64,000 bases of DNA, taken from positions 806,001 through 870,000 of the forward strand of contig JAUXVD010000008.1 in NCBI GenBank assembly GCA_030684575.1. Reading direction: 5' to 3'. Below, one piece after another: positions 56,462 through 63,551 of the stretch. The translations under genes were made by a program, and so were the position numbers. The stretch comes from Nitrospirota bacterium. GTDB lineage: Bacteria; Nitrospirota; Nitrospiria; Nitrospirales; Nitrospiraceae. Position 1 is the stretch's first letter, and every line of letters begins with the position of its first letter. The notes beneath the pieces are model-generated. The model was given only the letters and a program-made list of their open reading frames with translations, was not told the DNA's origin and ran no database searches.

Positions 56462-57460
56462 ATGACGCCGCTAAGGGCCGGTGTGATCGGCGTCGGACAT
56501 CTCGGGCAGCACCATGCGCGCCTCTATGCCTCCTTGCCCGGGGCACAACTTGCCGGTGTGACGGATCAATCAATTGAGCGGGCACAGGCGGTGGCAGATC
56601 GGCATGGGTCGCCGGTCTTTCGTACGATCGATGAATTGCTCTCGCACGTCGATGTCGTGAGTGTGGCAGTACCCACGTCTGGCCACTATGCCGTCGCCAA
56701 AGCCTGTCTGCAGGCAGGCAAACATGTCCTGGTTGAAAAACCCATTGCTGTCACACCAACAGAAGCAGAAGAGTTGGTTCAGCTGGCCAAACAACGAGGC
56801 TGTTGCTTACAAGTAGGCCACAGCGAGCGGTTTAATCCGGTGATGGCGCTGATGCGTCCTCATATCGGCCGTCCGGTGTTTATCGAATGTCACCGCCTCA
56901 GTAGCTTTAGTGAACGGGGGACGGACGTAGATGTGGTCTTGGACCTGATGATTCACGATTTGGATCTCGTGTTGTCGTTGAATCCTGGTCCCATTGAAGA
57001 AGTGCGCGCTGCAGGAGTGGCGGTAATGTCCTCCTCAATCGATATTGCCAATGCCCGTATTCAGTTCCAGAGCGGCTGCGTGGCCAACTTGACCTCCAGC
57101 CGTGTGTCGACGAATAAGATGCGGCGGTTGCGTCTCTTTCAGCGGGACAGTTACCTCTCGATCGATTTCCAGACTCGTCTCGGGATGGTCTCTCGACGTA
57201 GCGCCAAGGCAGGGGAGAAGCCGACCGTCGAGGTTGAACAGGTACAGGGTGGAGATGAAGAGCCCTTGAAGCTCCAACTTGCTTCGTTTCTGCATGCAGC
57301 CAGCACGGGCACGAGGCCGGTGGTGTCCGGTGAGGATGGTGCGGCGGCGGTAGCAGCCGCACATCAAGTGTTGCAGGCCATTGAGGCTTTTGCGGCTCGT
57401 CATGAAGAAGGGGCTCACGGAATAGAAGGTGTCGGCGCGTCTTCTTTGTCCCGTCTGTGA
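56462..57460 (+). CDS. Gfo/Idh/MocA-family oxidoreductase
   Basis: 332 residues. A Rossmann NAD(P) motif GVIGVGHLGQHHARLY at the N-terminus, the catalytic EKPIAVT (Lys), and RFNPVMALM, then the C-terminal beta-sheet domain. Genes of this type sit between lpxI and lpxB in many non-enteric bacteria, suggesting a sugar-modifying role in lipid A, as for the GnnA-type enzyme that makes the 3-amino sugar; a GnnB aminotransferase is not visible here, so the substrate is unproven. GAGG precedes ATG 56462. The 100 bp before it are rich in short GTCATC-type repeats and hold no gene. Confidence 0.85.
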   Translation: MTPLRAGVIGVGHLGQHHARLYASLPGAQLAGVTDQSIERAQAVADRHGSPVFRTIDELLSHVDVVSVAVPTSGHYAVAKACLQAGKHVLVEKPIAVTPTEAEELVQLAKQRGCCLQVGHSERFNPVMALMRPHIGRPVFIECHRLSSFSERGTDVDVVLDLMIHDLDLVLSLNPGPIEEVRAAGVAVMSSSIDIANARIQFQSGCVANLTSSRVSTNKMRRLRLFQRDSYLSIDFQTRLGMVSRRSAKAGEKPTVEVEQVQGGDEEPLKLQLASFLHAASTGTRPVVSGEDGAAAVAAAHQVLQAIEAFAARHEEGAHGIEGVGASSLSRL

Positions 57461-57464
57461 AGCT

Positions 57465-58592
57465 ATGCGAATGTTGATCGTGACAGGCGAAGCGTCAGGT
57501 GATCTCCACGGGGCTCATTTAGCGAAAGCGATCATGGCGCTCGACCCGACGGCCGAGTTGGTCGGCATTGGGGGGGCGGCGATGCGCGCAGCAGGCGTGA
57601 GCCTCGTGCCGGGCGTGCCACAGTTAGATGTGATGGGATTGATCGGCCTGTCCGCCATTCGGGCCATGGTCCAGCGCGTGTTGGCGATCCGGCGAGTACT
57701 GAAGTCAGAGGCCTGGGATTTGGTCGTGCTGATCGATAATCCAGGGTTGAATTTCCATTTCGCCAGAGTGGCTAAGGCCGCCGGTCGGCGTGTGATGTAT
57801 TATATTGCGCCCCAAGTATGGGCCTGGCGTCCCGGTCGTATGAAGTGGATTCAGCGCCGGGTCGATCATGTCGTCGTCATTCTTCCGTTCGAGCCGGAGC
57901 TCTATCGCCGGGCAGGTGTGCGTTGTACCTTCGTCGGCCATCCGCTGCTTGATGCGGTGGCGCCGCAGTACGATCGTGCGGCGCTTCGCAGGAAGTTCGG
58001 TCTGGACGAGTCGGCCCGCGTTGTTGGATTGTTGCCGGGGAGTCGAGTGCGCGAAGTCGAGATGCTGCTGCCGGTACTTCTCGATGCGGCGGCGCAACTG
58101 CATGCCGCAGAACCGGGGATACAATTTATCCTGGCGCAGGCCTCGTCAATTCACGATCATCTGATTCAGTCGCTGTTACAACAGAGCCCTGTGCCGGTCC
58201 GGGTTGCCTACGATCAGGCGAGTGAGGTGATGGCCCTCTCCGATGTGTTGTTTATTGCATCGGGGACCGCCACGCTCCAGGCGGCGGTGGTGGGGACTCC
58301 CATGGTGTTACTGTACAAGACCACGCCGGTAACCTATCGCCTGGCGCGTTGGCTGATCAATGTGAAATGGATCGGGCTCGTCAATCTGGTAGCAGGCCGA
58401 TCGGTCGTGCCGGAATTGATTCAGGATGAGGCGACGGCCGAGCGGTTGTGTCAGGAGGTGCTCCATCTCTTGCGCGATCCGGCGGCCTATCGTGAGATGC
58501 AAGAAGGGTTGCGACAGGTTCGGCAATCGTTGGGGGAACCCGGCGCCTCCCGCCGGGCCGCAGAGGTGGCATTGTCTGAATGTCGACGCTAG
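57465..58592 (+). CDS. lpxB: Lipid-A-disaccharide synthase LpxB
   Basis: 375 residues, GT-B-like fold. Conserved MLIVTGEASGDLHGAHL, IDNPGLNFHFA, YYIAPQVWAWRPGRMKWI, CTFVGHPLLD, LLPGSRVREVEMLLPVLL and the late block SGTATLQAAVVGTPMVLLYKT. It joins lipid X and UDP-diacyl-GlcN. ATG 57465 lies 4 bp after the preceding stop. It overlaps msbA by 13 bp. Confidence 0.95.
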   Translation: MRMLIVTGEASGDLHGAHLAKAIMALDPTAELVGIGGAAMRAAGVSLVPGVPQLDVMGLIGLSAIRAMVQRVLAIRRVLKSEAWDLVVLIDNPGLNFHFARVAKAAGRRVMYYIAPQVWAWRPGRMKWIQRRVDHVVVILPFEPELYRRAGVRCTFVGHPLLDAVAPQYDRAALRRKFGLDESARVVGLLPGSRVREVEMLLPVLLDAAAQLHAAEPGIQFILAQASSIHDHLIQSLLQQSPVPVRVAYDQASEVMALSDVLFIASGTATLQAAVVGTPMVLLYKTTPVTYRLARWLINVKWIGLVNLVAGRSVVPELIQDEATAERLCQEVLHLLRDPAAYREMQEGLRQVRQSLGEPGASRRAAEVALSECRR

Positions 58593-60325
58593 ACCGCTTG
58601 ATACGACTGTATCTGTATCTGAAGCCCTATCGGGTTCGCTTAGGTGCGGCCTTCGCTTGTTCAGGGATGGTGGCGGCTTTCTCCGGCGCTTATGCCTGGC
58701 TCGTCAAGCCGGTCCTCGACGAGATCTTCATCAATAAGAACGAAAGTCTTCTGCTGGTCCTGCCTCTGGCGCTCTTCACCGTGTCGGTGCTGAAGAGCGC
58801 CTTCAACTACGGGCAAAACTATCTCATGAACTATGTCGGGAATCAGGTGATCACCGATATCCGGCAGGAGTTGTTCGGGAAACTCATTCGCTTACCCATT
58901 TCCTACCACGATGTGAATACGTCGGGGCGGCTGGTGTCCCGTGTGGTGAACGACGTGTCGTTGATGGCCAACGCGGTAGCAGGCGTCCTGAAGGATATTT
59001 TCCAGCAGGGCCTCACGTTTCTCGCCATGATGGGCGTCATCTTCTATCAGAATTGGCGGCTGGCCGGTCTCTCGGTGATCGTCATCCCCTTGGCCGTCTT
59101 CACGATGGTGCGGATGGGGAAACGGCTGCGGGCGCTGGCGGCCAGCGGCCAGGAGCGGATGGGGGATATGGCCTCGACCCTTCAGGAAACGCTGTCCGGT
59201 ATTCGCATGGTGAAGGCGTATGGGCGGGAAGAGACCGAGGAGACGAGATTTCAACAGAGCAACCGCGCCTTCCTGAGCACGACGATGAAGGCGATCCAAG
59301 TTTCGTCCCTCGGGTCGTCGCATATGGAAGTGATCGGTGTGGTGGGCGTTGCGGCGATTATCTGGTATGGCGGATTTCTCGTGATCAATGGCTCCATGAC
59401 GCCGGGGGAGTTTTTTTCGTTTCTGACAGCGATGTTCATGGCCTATACCCCGCTTCGCCGGTTGTCCGGTTCCAATAATTCGATTCAACAGGCCTTGGCC
59501 GCGGCCGAACGGGTATTTGACGTGCTCGATCTCAAGACCGAGCAGGATGCGGAGCGGGGCCGGTTGGAGTTGCCTCGGGTGGCGCAGGCGGTCACGTTTG
59601 AGGGCGTGACGTTTCTGTATGAGAGTCAGGCCGTGCCGGCGCTGAATGACATCAACCTGACGATTCGCGCCGGAGAAATGGTGGCGCTTGTCGGCAGCAG
59701 TGGCAGTGGAAAGACGACCCTGGTCAATCTGATCCCGCGCTTTTACGAACCGACGGCCGGTCGTGTGCTCATCGATGGAGTCGATATTCAGTCCTACAGC
59801 CTGCGCTCGCTGCGTTCGCAGATGGGGATGGTGTCGCAAGATGTGGTCTTGTTCGACGACAGCATTCGGAACAACATCGCGTTTGGGCGGCAGGATGCGA
59901 CCGATGAAGAGATTGTGCAGGCTGCGCGGTCGGCCTATGCCCACGATTTCGTCGAACGTCTTCCGCAGGGATATCAGACGGTGGTGGGAGAAAAAGGGGT
60001 AAAGCTTTCAGGGGGCGAACGGCAGCGTTTGGCCATCGCCCGCGCAATTTTACGCGATCCCCCCCTGCTCATTCTCGATGAAGCCACGTCGGCATTGGAC
60101 ACCGAGTCCGAGCGGGTCGTTCAGCTGGCGCTGACTAACTTGATGAAGAATCGGACGACCGTCGTGATTGCCCATCGGCTGTCCACGATTCAACGGGCCG
60201 ATCGGATCATGGTCTTGGCCAAGGGCTCGATCGTCGAAGTCGGCACCCACGATGAACTGCTTCGGAGCGGCGGCCAATACCAGCGGCTCCATGCCATGCA
60301 ATTCCAGGATGTGCCCGATGCGTAA
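58580..60325 (+). CDS. msbA: Lipid A export ABC transporter MsbA
   Basis: 581 residues: six membrane helices in the first ~320 (TMD with NYVGNQVITDIRQELFGKLIRLP) and a nucleotide-binding domain with GSSGSGKTTLV, Q-loop VSQDVVLFDD, LSGGERQRLAIARAIL and ILDEATSALD. A half-transporter that dimerises to flip lipid A-core across the inner membrane. Its place between lpxB and the core-building genes supports the MsbA call over other exporters. Confidence 0.92.
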   Translation: MSTLDRLIRLYLYLKPYRVRLGAAFACSGMVAAFSGAYAWLVKPVLDEIFINKNESLLLVLPLALFTVSVLKSAFNYGQNYLMNYVGNQVITDIRQELFGKLIRLPISYHDVNTSGRLVSRVVNDVSLMANAVAGVLKDIFQQGLTFLAMMGVIFYQNWRLAGLSVIVIPLAVFTMVRMGKRLRALAASGQERMGDMASTLQETLSGIRMVKAYGREETEETRFQQSNRAFLSTTMKAIQVSSLGSSHMEVIGVVGVAAIIWYGGFLVINGSMTPGEFFSFLTAMFMAYTPLRRLSGSNNSIQQALAAAERVFDVLDLKTEQDAERGRLELPRVAQAVTFEGVTFLYESQAVPALNDINLTIRAGEMVALVGSSGSGKTTLVNLIPRFYEPTAGRVLIDGVDIQSYSLRSLRSQMGMVSQDVVLFDDSIRNNIAFGRQDATDEEIVQAARSAYAHDFVERLPQGYQTVVGEKGVKLSGGERQRLAIARAILRDPPLLILDEATSALDTESERVVQLALTNLMKNRTTVVIAHRLSTIQRADRIMVLAKGSIVEVGTHDELLRSGGQYQRLHAMQFQDVPDA

Positions 60326-60349
60326 GGTCGACGTGATGGGTGATCGGCG

Positions 60350-61047
60350 ATGAGTGATGCGCGTAGAACGGGAGCCGGCGTGAAGAAGCGAATCGAGACA
60401 TGGGTCAAGCTCTCTCTGCTCCCTCCCGTCGGAGCGTCGATCATTCGCGGACTGACCGGGTCGATGCGAATGGAGTCGCAGGGCCACGAACAAGTGGATG
60501 CCTTGTATCGTGAGGGGCGGCATATCATTCTTGCGTTTTGGCATGCGCAGCAGCTCATGGTCCCGATCGGCTATCGTGGAACAGGCGCCAACGTCTTGAT
60601 CAGCCAGCACCAGGATGGTGAGATCATCGCACGCATCATCTCGCGATTCGGGCATCGGGCGGTGCGTGGATCGAGCACTAGGGGTGGGGCGCTGGCGTTG
60701 CGAGAATTGATTCGCCTCGGGCGATCGGGTGCGGACCTTGTCGTGACTCCCGATGGACCCAAGGGGCCTCGCCAGGTTGCCAAGCTTGGAGTGGTGCAGT
60801 TGGCGAAGGCCACCGGGCTTCCGATTGTGCCGTTAGCCTTTAGCTGCTCAAAAAAAAACTCTTCGCGAGCTGGGATCGGTTCATGGTCCCATTCCCATGG
60901 TCTCGGGGCCTCTACCTGTGGGGCGCTCCCATCTTGGTGCCGCGAGACTCCGATGAGCAGGCGTTGGAAGCGGCACGCCTGGAGCTTGAAACGGTTCTGA
61001 ATCGATTGACGGAACAGGCGGAGAGGGACGTGAACTCTAGCCGTTAG
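60350..61047 (+). CDS. DUF374 lysophospholipid/lipid A acyltransferase-like protein, frameshifted at an A9 run
   Basis: The N-terminal ~165 residues match the DUF374 (LPLAT-like) family: HIILAFWHAQQLMVP, GSSTRGGALALRELIRLGRSGADLVVTPDGPKGPRQ, LAKATGLPIVPLAF. At 60850-60858 there is a run of nine A residues. Reading straight through gives an aberrant tail ending at 61000; stepping back one base gives KKKLFASWDRFMVPFPWSRG and a normal family end at 61047. The run contains A-AAA-AAA in the correct register for -1 slippage. It may be a sequencing or assembly error, a true mutation, or programmed slippage. Coordinates cover the full family-like product. It probably acylates a lipid A precursor at the inner membrane (inference from neighbours). 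Confidence 0.78.
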
Positions 61048-61114
61048 CTGTCAGCCTTCAGCGCTGTAAGAGTGTCTGCTGACTGCTCATGGCTGACTGC
61101 TGATAGCTCATCAT

Positions 61115-62434
61115 ATGTGGCGTCTCTTCTATAACATAGTGCTCATGCTCGTATCGCCGATCATTCTGGCAGTACTGCTGGCCAAGCAGCGCTGCCGGCG
61201 TGGCTTGCTCCAGCGGCTGGGGTTGAAAGATTGTCTATCTGATCCATCTGGTCTATCCCGTCAATCAGGCCAACCAGATAGACCAGTCATCTGGATTCAT
61301 GCTGTTTCCCTCGGTGAAGTGGTGGCCGTCACACCGCTGGTCAAGGAGCTGCAACGTCGTCATCCGGCACATCGGATTCTGGTCTCGACGGTGACAGAGA
61401 CCGGAAGGGAAGCTGTGGAGCAACGGTTGGCTGGTGTCGCAGAGCATTGCTATGCTCCGCTCGATTTTCCCTGGGTGGTGTCTCGCTTCATCGAACGATT
61501 GCACCCCTGCCTCTATGTGTTCGTCGAGACCGAACTCTGGCCGAACCTCTTATGGCACCTGCGTCGGCGAGGAGTGCCGACGGTTCTTGTGAACGGCCGG
61601 CTCTCGACCAGGTCGTTTGCTCGGCAGCAATGGGCGCCTGTGCGATCGTTCTATCGGACGATGTTGCAGGGGATCAGCCTCTGTCTGATGCAATCGGACC
61701 GTGATGTCGACCGTATCGTCGCGCTGGGAGCAGCGGCCTCCCGGGTCAGGCGAACAGGGAATATCAAGTTCGATCAGCCGATACCTGCCGTAACAGAGGG
61801 TGGAGTGACGAGGGCTCGTCTTGGGCTTCAGGAGGGGGAGCAGCTGTTCGTGGCGGGCAGTACCCATTCTGGAGAAGAAGAGATGCTCGTGGAATGTTAT
61901 CAGGCGCTCGTGACGCATCATCCCTCGGCCGTCCTGCTCCTGGCCCCTCGACATATCGAACGAGCGGAATCGGTGGAGGTTATGGTGCGGGCGCGTGGGC
62001 TCGCCGTGCAGAAAGGCAGTACCATCGGACAGGCCGGCTGGTTGCAGCCTGCCGGCCCGCGTGTAGTGGTGCTCGATTCACGTGGGGAATTAGCAGCGAT
62101 TTATCGGGAAGCGGTCGTGGCGTTTGTCGGAGGCACACTTGTCCCGATCGGCGGGCACAATTTGCTGGAGCCGGCTCAATGGGCGAAGCCCGTGTTGTTC
62201 GGTCCCTATACCGACCATTGTGCAGAAATTGCAGATTTTTTGATTCAGGCGGGAGGGGGACGTCGGGTTCTCCAGGCGGAGGATCTTACGAAACAGGTCG
62301 TGGCTCTGTTCTCTGATGACAAGGGACGGAGGCGGATGGGCCAATCAGCGCGGCAGGTGGTTGAGCAGAACCAGGGGGCCTTGCAACGGACGTTGGAGGC
62401 GATCGATCAGCTGCTGATACCGCAATGCAGGTAG
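61115..62434 (+). CDS. waaA: 3-deoxy-D-manno-octulosonic acid transferase WaaA (KdtA)
   Basis: 439 residues. An N-terminal membrane anchor (FYNIVLMLVSPIILAVLL), then GT-B blocks: RGLLQRLGL, WIHAVSLGEVVAVTPL with the catalytic Glu, STVTETGRE, FVETELWPNLLW, VNGRLSTRSF, AGSTHSGEEEMLVE and FVGGTLVPIGGHNLLEPA. It adds Kdo to lipid IVA. Between LQRLGLKD and WIHAV there is an in-frame excess of about 15 residues (SDPSGLSRQSGQPDR) encoded by an inverted repeat, unlike typical family members. Confidence 0.95.
   Translation: MWRLFYNIVLMLVSPIILAVLLAKQRCRRGLLQRLGLKDCLSDPSGLSRQSGQPDRPVIWIHAVSLGEVVAVTPLVKELQRRHPAHRILVSTVTETGREAVEQRLAGVAEHCYAPLDFPWVVSRFIERLHPCLYVFVETELWPNLLWHLRRRGVPTVLVNGRLSTRSFARQQWAPVRSFYRTMLQGISLCLMQSDRDVDRIVALGAAASRVRRTGNIKFDQPIPAVTEGGVTRARLGLQEGEQLFVAGSTHSGEEEMLVECYQALVTHHPSAVLLLAPRHIERAESVEVMVRARGLAVQKGSTIGQAGWLQPAGPRVVVLDSRGELAAIYREAVVAFVGGTLVPIGGHNLLEPAQWAKPVLFGPYTDHCAEIADFLIQAGGGRRVLQAEDLTKQVVALFSDDKGRRRMGQSARQVVEQNQGALQRTLEAIDQLLIPQCR
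61246..61286. repeat. Inverted repeat inside the waaA coding region
   Basis: CTGGTCTATC (61248-61257) and GATAGACCAG (61277-61286) are perfect complements, with further partial copies of ATCTGG on both sides. The insert keeps the reading frame and lies in a surface-loop region of WaaA. Confidence 0.6.
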
Positions 62435-62486
62435 ATCGGCTGAAGGCCTTGAGTCTTCAGCCTGAACAACTGAGTAGGTACGAAAA

Positions 62487-63551
62487 TTGTTGAATCCTGG
62501 GACAAAGGTCAGATGGTGGCTGTTGTGGGCTGCAATCCCATACGGGGCCGTTGCGCGGCTGCGCGCGCTCCTGTACTACTGGGGCTGGTTTGCACAGCGA
62601 AGATTACCGGTTCCCGTGGTGAGTGTCGGGAATCTCACGCTGGGTGGGACCGGCAAAACGCCGGTGGTCATTCAGCTGGTCGAATGGCTCCTGGCGCAGG
62701 GGAGCAGGGTGGCGATTCTCAGCCGGGGCTATCGAAGGACCAGTACGGATCCGTATCTGCTCGTATCGAATGGCGAGCAGCTGCTGGTCGGTCCGAACGA
62801 GGCAGGCGATGAGCCATTCTTGATGGCGCAACGTTGCCCCAGGGCGATCGTGGCTGTCGGCGCGGATCGCTACGAACTCGGGCGCTGGGTCTTGGATCGA
62901 TTTCCGGTCGATTGTCTGATCCTCGACGATGGATTTCAGCATCTGGGGATATATCGCGACGTGAACCTCTTATTGGTCGATGCGACGGATGCAGCGGGAC
63001 TGGCGGCTCTAGTGCCGGCCGGTCGACTCCGGGAGCCGCTTCAGGCGGCCGGACGGGCGACGGCGATTGTGATCACAAGAGCGGATGCGCAGGCGCGGGT
63101 GACCGAGGTGTGCCGGCGGCTGCAGGACGTGATCGATCCGATGCCAGACCCGATCCAGGTGGTATTTCGTCCGGAGCGTCTCTGGTCGGTGGTCAGCGGC
63201 GCATCGCAGCCGCTCTCCTGGTCTAAGGGAAAGACCGCGTTGCTCTGTAGTGCGGTGGGACATGCGGGATCCTTTCGTGCGCTTGTCGAGTCGGTCGGGA
63301 TCACGGTGCTCGACGAAGTGGTATTTATCGATCACCATGCCTATACGAGACAGGACGTCGAGCAGCTTCGAGCGAGAGCGACAGAGCTTCAGGCGGAACT
63401 CGTGGTGACGACGGAGAAAGATGCCTGCAAGCTGGCTGTGTTGCTCCAACCCACCGATCCCTGGTGGGCTGTCCGATTGGCCACGGACGTGACCGTCGGG
63501 GAAGATCAACTGCGGCAGGCAGTGCTTGGAAAGCTGAAGGTCGAAGGCTGA
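62487..63551 (+). CDS. lpxK: Tetraacyldisaccharide 4'-kinase LpxK
   Basis: 354 residues. P-loop in SVGNLTLGGTGKTPVV, the LSRGYRR segment, GDEPFLMAQRCP, VDCLILDDGFQHL and, C-terminally, DHHAYTRQDVEQL and VTTEKDACKL. It phosphorylates the lipid A disaccharide. A TTG start at 62487 or 62490 is likely. The 52-bp gap after waaA contains a hairpin GGCTGAAG (62438-62445)/CTTCAGCC (62455-62462) with no T-tract. Confidence 0.94.
   Translation: MLNPGTKVRWWLLWAAIPYGAVARLRALLYYWGWFAQRRLPVPVVSVGNLTLGGTGKTPVVIQLVEWLLAQGSRVAILSRGYRRTSTDPYLLVSNGEQLLVGPNEAGDEPFLMAQRCPRAIVAVGADRYELGRWVLDRFPVDCLILDDGFQHLGIYRDVNLLLVDATDAAGLAALVPAGRLREPLQAAGRATAIVITRADAQARVTEVCRRLQDVIDPMPDPIQVVFRPERLWSVVSGASQPLSWSKGKTALLCSAVGHAGSFRALVESVGITVLDEVVFIDHHAYTRQDVEQLRARATELQAELVVTTEKDACKLAVLLQPTDPWWAVRLATDVTVGEDQLRQAVLGKLKVEG

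Follow-up and report, generated by a model that had tools for sequence, protein, structure and literature searches.

Most known examples of RNA polymerase slippage on homopolymeric runs come from mobile elements, secretion genes and the reduced genomes of endosymbionts. In a 2005 survey of A9 runs, seven cases were conserved, of which six belonged to IS elements and one was mapW (PMC1088944), and the IS-element transposases with A9 slippage have a conserved overlap of two ORFs at the A9 (Baranov et al. 2005). Homopolymer runs also restore the frame of interrupted genes in Citrobacter rodentium tssM1 (A11) and Shigella mxiE/spa13, which are lineage-restricted secretion genes, and poly-A slippage compensates indels and so rescues frameshifted genes in the AT-rich, reduced genomes of insect endosymbionts. 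In Thermus thermophilus dnaX (template T9, ~50%), a chromosomal housekeeping gene, the unslipped product is the full-length protein and slippage leads to the short form. Slippage in vivo is efficient at nine A's or T's and the RNA:DNA hybrid is 9-10 bp (PMC5009743); in lacZ tests of A7-A11, insertion was at least twice deletion (quoted in PMC6260861).

The gene described here, from a Nitrospirota genome, resembles T. thermophilus dnaX in its nine-nucleotide homopolymer, its housekeeping role on the chromosome and the heterogeneous mRNAs to be expected. It resembles tssM1 and mxiE/spa13 in that a run would restore an interrupted frame, the transposases in the conserved two-ORF overlap at A9, and the endosymbiont genes in that slippage would compensate an indel. 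Unlike in dnaX, the full enzyme would need slippage. Also, the gene is not part of a mobile element or a lineage-restricted secretion system; it is a core lipid A gene in much of a phylum, and its GC-rich (58%), 3.8-Mb genome retains the A9 as one of very few such runs. The characterised LpxJ enzymes (DUF374) of Campylobacterota and Rickettsia, whose domain, FWH, DGE, PDGP and SWD motifs and lipid A gene context it shares, are without a described frame break, whereas the enzyme here is predicted from sequence. In R. typhi LpxJ, W60, H61, D86, D132, W172 and D173 are required for activity, and W172A or D173A abolishes it (PMC6148475).

A predicted lipid A acyltransferase gene split at nine A's

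The analysed stretch of 64,000 nucleotides (the window) comes from a 3.79-Mb genome in 23 contigs whose nearest relatives are Nitrospira. It includes a lipid A cluster at 57429-63551, all on the forward strand, in which the DUF374 gene sits among lpxB (57429-58592; PF02684, 4e-94), an msbA-like ABC exporter directly upstream (58580-60325; PF00664/PF00005), waaA (kdtA) directly downstream (61115-62434; PF04413, 1e-64) and lpxK (62487-63551; PF02606, 1e-85). A C7 run within the exporter gene (60059-60065) is in frame and apparently harmless. One LpxL/M-type acyltransferase gene (PF03279) is located elsewhere in the genome.

The zero-frame ORF (60350-61000, 216 aa) consists of an LpxJ/DUF374 N-terminal part followed by an unrelated tail of ~46 codons, and it matches the DUF374 domain (PF04028) at 4e-27 with 94 bits against a gathering cut-off of 26.8; NCBIfam gave no match for the gene product. 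The N-terminal coding part (60350-60858, with an unproven start codon at 60350 and an alternative GTG at 60380) contains the motifs FWH, DGE and PDGPKGP and ends in a run of nine A's at 60850-60858, in the zero-frame register tcA AAA AAA AAc, both in agreement with a sequence-only reading of this DNA. Beyond the run, the zero-frame tail (60859-61000) ends at TGA 60998-61000, and the remaining family sequence (KLFASWDRFMVPFPW...) is in the -1 frame. This C-terminal coding part (60856-61047; KLFASWDRF...SSR and stop) reads KLFASWDRFMVPFPWSRGLYLWG... from 60856 and ends at TAG 61045-61047. The same reading had claimed that family similarity carries on in the -1 frame past the A9, which is borne out by relatives whose C-parts are mostly 55-89% identical.

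The set of FWH, DGE, PDGP and SWD is complete in the recoded reading only, with SWD located a few residues past the run. Based on motif order and spacing, with the Rickettsia sequence itself left unaligned, these motifs would correspond to the residues essential in R. typhi LpxJ. Because SWD comes after the run, the unshifted 216-aa product should be inactive and recoding would be needed. AlphaFold models were too weak to use for either the zero-frame product (pLDDT 54) or the naturally in-frame protein of one relative (L032, pLDDT 57), the latter because the C-halves could not be aligned as rows. On our reading, the gene is probably functional and encodes a late acyltransferase of the lpxJ type, for completing lipid A, the lipid anchor of the outer membrane, with recoding at the A9 required for a full-length active enzyme.

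The shifted state within the order

A first search of 60 relatives gave matches that, in nearly all of them and in single-contig genomes too, fell into two pieces at one shared residue. We then read 111 loci, of which 80 came from named public contigs and one from the complete N. moscoviensis genome (L075), and found TCA followed by nine or ten A's in total with the -1 offset in all except two. One exception (L032) is a true in-frame gene with a broken run; the other (L034) was rejected as an in-frame gene given the NN in its contig.

The fixed pattern TCA-A8-S-T-N-TT-N4-AGYTGGGA, which spans the A9 together with the -1 tryptophan motif and so fixes the -1 offset, was found in 192 of 235 genomes, covering 29 of 37 genera and three of the four families of the order, and its reversed control had 0 matches. 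A second search, of the 43 genomes lacking the pattern, found 15 shifted with A9 or A10 (one of them, L124, in the +1 direction) and six in frame (L116, L117, L119 and three of family f4); in the rest the gene was absent or the match was a fragment or a paralogue. The in-frame site of L116 is TCC CAA AAA ACA, identical to that of L032, that of L117 is TCG CAC AAG CAT, and L119 has an A10 run. In total, 213 genomes of the order could be read, ~207 of them shifted and 6 in frame. A -1 shift is present in 135 of 147 unique loci, with a run of nine in 120 and of ten in 15, and there are no shifted genes with fewer than nine A's. The first A of the run was retained even where the preceding residue turned Leu (TTA) or Ala (GCA). 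Judging from these sequences, the shifted state can be lost, and rarely is.

Natural in-frame versions (L032/L116, L117, L119, L126, L128 and L135) lie inside the shifted clade, at about four separate places in the tree. In L124 (genome G203), which could be a MAG error, an A10 run is combined with a C-part in the +1 frame after the loss of a downstream T; if real, this arrangement would be reachable by polymerase slippage and not by -1 ribosomal frameshifting. Three contigs titled Hyphomicrobium, Acidimicrobiia and Nitrosospira (L060, L080, L084) carry a Nitrospira-type locus with the A9 site and are probably misbinned Nitrospira contigs. Three small relatives (G015, G020, G197; 1.7-1.8 Mb, 91-99% complete) have no LpxJ match and may have simplified or lost their lipid A.

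Distribution across Nitrospirota

In a phylum-wide sample of families, f5 and f6, which belong to the class, had the same -1 break, as did f9, f10, f13 and f20 from other parts of the phylum. The A run and the -1 offset are the same in three families of the order and six more of the phylum, and the run shows no synonymous drift, which decides in favour of a programmed shift, one of three options that the sequence-only reading had left open. In the other classes the break occurs at A9 or A10: the run is A10 in f9, and in f10 and f13 the site is CGC/CGT AAA AAA AAA, with the nine A's starting in a different codon phase. Most of the f10 genes read have a zero-frame TGA directly after the run. The gene is a single ORF, with the run absent, in f12, f15, f16 and f26. 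On a tree of 102 proteins, the shifted or in-frame state needs 7 changes versus 27 for shuffled labels; the deep branches are weakly supported, and one origin with losses and several gains both fit.

Selection on the site and on the two frames

Parsimony on the gene tree gave 0 changes at the four codon columns of the site, versus a median of 17 and a minimum of 3 at other conserved codon columns (n = 99) and 13-17 at other Lys columns. Across 117 shifted loci of the order, the site never varies in its Ser and Lys codons (single odd entries in the codon table stem from one row displaced by a codon), versus a mean wobble entropy of ~1.48 bits at the other conserved columns. Outside the site, Lys is encoded by AAG 519 times versus AAA 292 times, and TCA makes up ~7% of Ser codons.

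The N-part had a dN/dS of 0.057, the C-part one of 0.162 when taken in the -1 frame, and the zero-frame tail one of 1.68, the first two being rough ratios with dS near saturation. On these ratios, purifying selection acts on the C-part in its -1 reading but not on the tail. Synonymous variation in the overlap (1.47) equals that of the N-part (1.48), so the zero-frame tail appears to be a by-product. The sequence-only reading had doubted that the enzyme is dead, and selection on the C-part indeed indicates a living gene.

Matches to an A9 pattern number 1-14 per genome on both strands by pattern search. The window's genome has only four A9/T9 runs, and in G107, a relative whose genome is a single 4.0-Mb contig, the sole A9 run is this site. 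Because A9 runs are rare and the break recurs in almost all readable genomes of the order, a chance origin of the break is excluded by the sequence comparison. The other coding-strand runs of the window's genome, with ORFs named by eye, are an A9 in the last codons of an FAD-type oxidoreductase-like ORF (L113, 1501-1509) and a T9 inside a FemAB-like ORF (L115, 1501-1509), where slippage could also occur. Given conservation, codon usage and frame-specific selection, recoding at the A9 by one mechanism or another almost certainly takes place.

Transcriptional slippage and ribosomal frameshifting

We consider RNA polymerase slippage inserting one A the likely mechanism, ahead of -1 ribosomal frameshifting. 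In this process, RNA polymerase would slip while copying nine template T's, where the 9-10 bp RNA:DNA hybrid would be all rA:dT and could realign, so that a share of transcripts would gain one extra A. Ordinary translation of such A10 transcripts would read TCA AAA AAA AAA CTC and continue into the C-part, giving ~232 aa, and unedited transcripts would yield the 216-aa protein lacking the SWD motif. What the sequences show directly is the frame break and how widely it is kept, selection in the -1 frame, an unvarying run and a lack of ribosomal stimulators; the occurrence of slippage, its transcriptional nature, its efficiency and its capping of the acyltransferase dose are what we infer from them.

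All 135 unique -1 loci have 9 or 10 A's, a homopolymer of at least ~9 A/T that matches the hybrid, and the nine-A requirement fits polymerase slippage because the hybrid is 9-10 bp. Among the orthologues, a single +1 case (L124) stands against ~206 of -1. One conserved direction has been given as a sign of ribosomal frameshifting (Antonov et al., PMC3711429) and speaks against slippage, and so does a report that T runs make E. coli RNA polymerase slip more than A runs do (PMC6260861). The rule of direction is weakened, however, because insertion outweighs deletion on A7-A11, which would itself produce a uniform -1 direction.

In programmed -1 ribosomal frameshifting, which we regard as unlikely, tRNA-Lys in the P and A sites would move back one base on A_AAA_AAA or A_AAA_AAC/AAG, and the extra A's would merely offer two overlapping heptamers. 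The register is a valid X_XXY_YYZ heptamer (A_AAA_AAA, A_AAA_AAC/G/A), as the sequence-only reading had proposed, and some clades carry A_AAA_AAG. However, a heptamer at positions 1-7 leaves position 9 free and one at positions 4-10 leaves position 1 free, and both positions are invariant; one heptamer needs seven A's at most, and no shifted relative has a run below nine. A Shine-Dalgarno-like motif upstream of the run was found at 1 of 117 loci. No conserved stem-loop was found near the run in a search of structures other than pseudoknots (alifold about -0.3 kcal, downstream folding z -0.3), and upstream windows fold slightly better than shuffles (z -1.4) with no conserved pairs. Stimulators are common in ribosomal frameshifting, not obligatory. 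As Shine-Dalgarno motifs and conserved stem-loops are lacking and both ends of the run are fixed, transcriptional slippage is favoured. The register given in the sequence-only reading is valid; of its two ideas, the passing remark on transcriptional slippage, which the constant nine A's favour, has better support than the ribosomal framing. A mix of the two mechanisms is possible.

Other explanations

If reinitiation or internal initiation gave two separate polypeptides that then assemble, the two overlapping ORFs would be accounted for. This is very improbable: no start codon is conserved in the C-part, many relatives have a Leu, Gln or Ile codon in place of the ATG at RFMVPF, the essential SWD is upstream of that ATG, and the gene is one ORF in f4, f12, f15, f16, L032 and L117. 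Phase variation, in which the A9 would be a replication-slippage switch caught by the assembly in its OFF state, could be suggested by a homopolymer inside an envelope gene and is even harder to credit. A switch would give mixed lengths, whereas almost every readable genome of the order shares the shifted state, the A9 is fixed in most of the order, and L119 (A10) alone has a run length that gives the ON state.

Sequencing is prone to errors at homopolymers, but a sequencing or assembly error or a recent disabling mutation, the remaining two options of the sequence-only reading, can practically be dismissed, as the same sequence recurs in some 200 independent assemblies, including complete N. 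moscoviensis and single-contig genomes, the break is common to the order rather than private, and the C-part is under purifying selection.

Implications for Nitrospirota

No DUF374 cluster appears in the main text of Antonov et al., when one Nitrospirae genome was available (PMC3711429), and the literature searched, with subscription papers and supplements outside the search, contained no report linking Nitrospira or LpxJ/lipid A with programmed frameshifts or slippage. Slippage as a class of mechanism is known; its apparent use in the lpxJ family and its breadth are without prior report in that literature. A housekeeping gene of the envelope appears to depend on it here, and in many genomes of nitrite oxidizers and comammox bacteria automatic annotation probably truncates the gene or labels it a pseudogene.

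A single-base change would be enough to repair the frame, yet the site has persisted through several families and classes, and selection for the slip itself is therefore implied. We tentatively suggest, as a reading that may well prove wrong, that across much of Nitrospirota the amount of a core lipid A acyltransferase is set by an obligatory, anciently conserved site of polymerase slippage. If true, envelope acylation in these bacteria would be tuned by transcription fidelity, possibly by nucleotide levels, and not by a conventional regulator.
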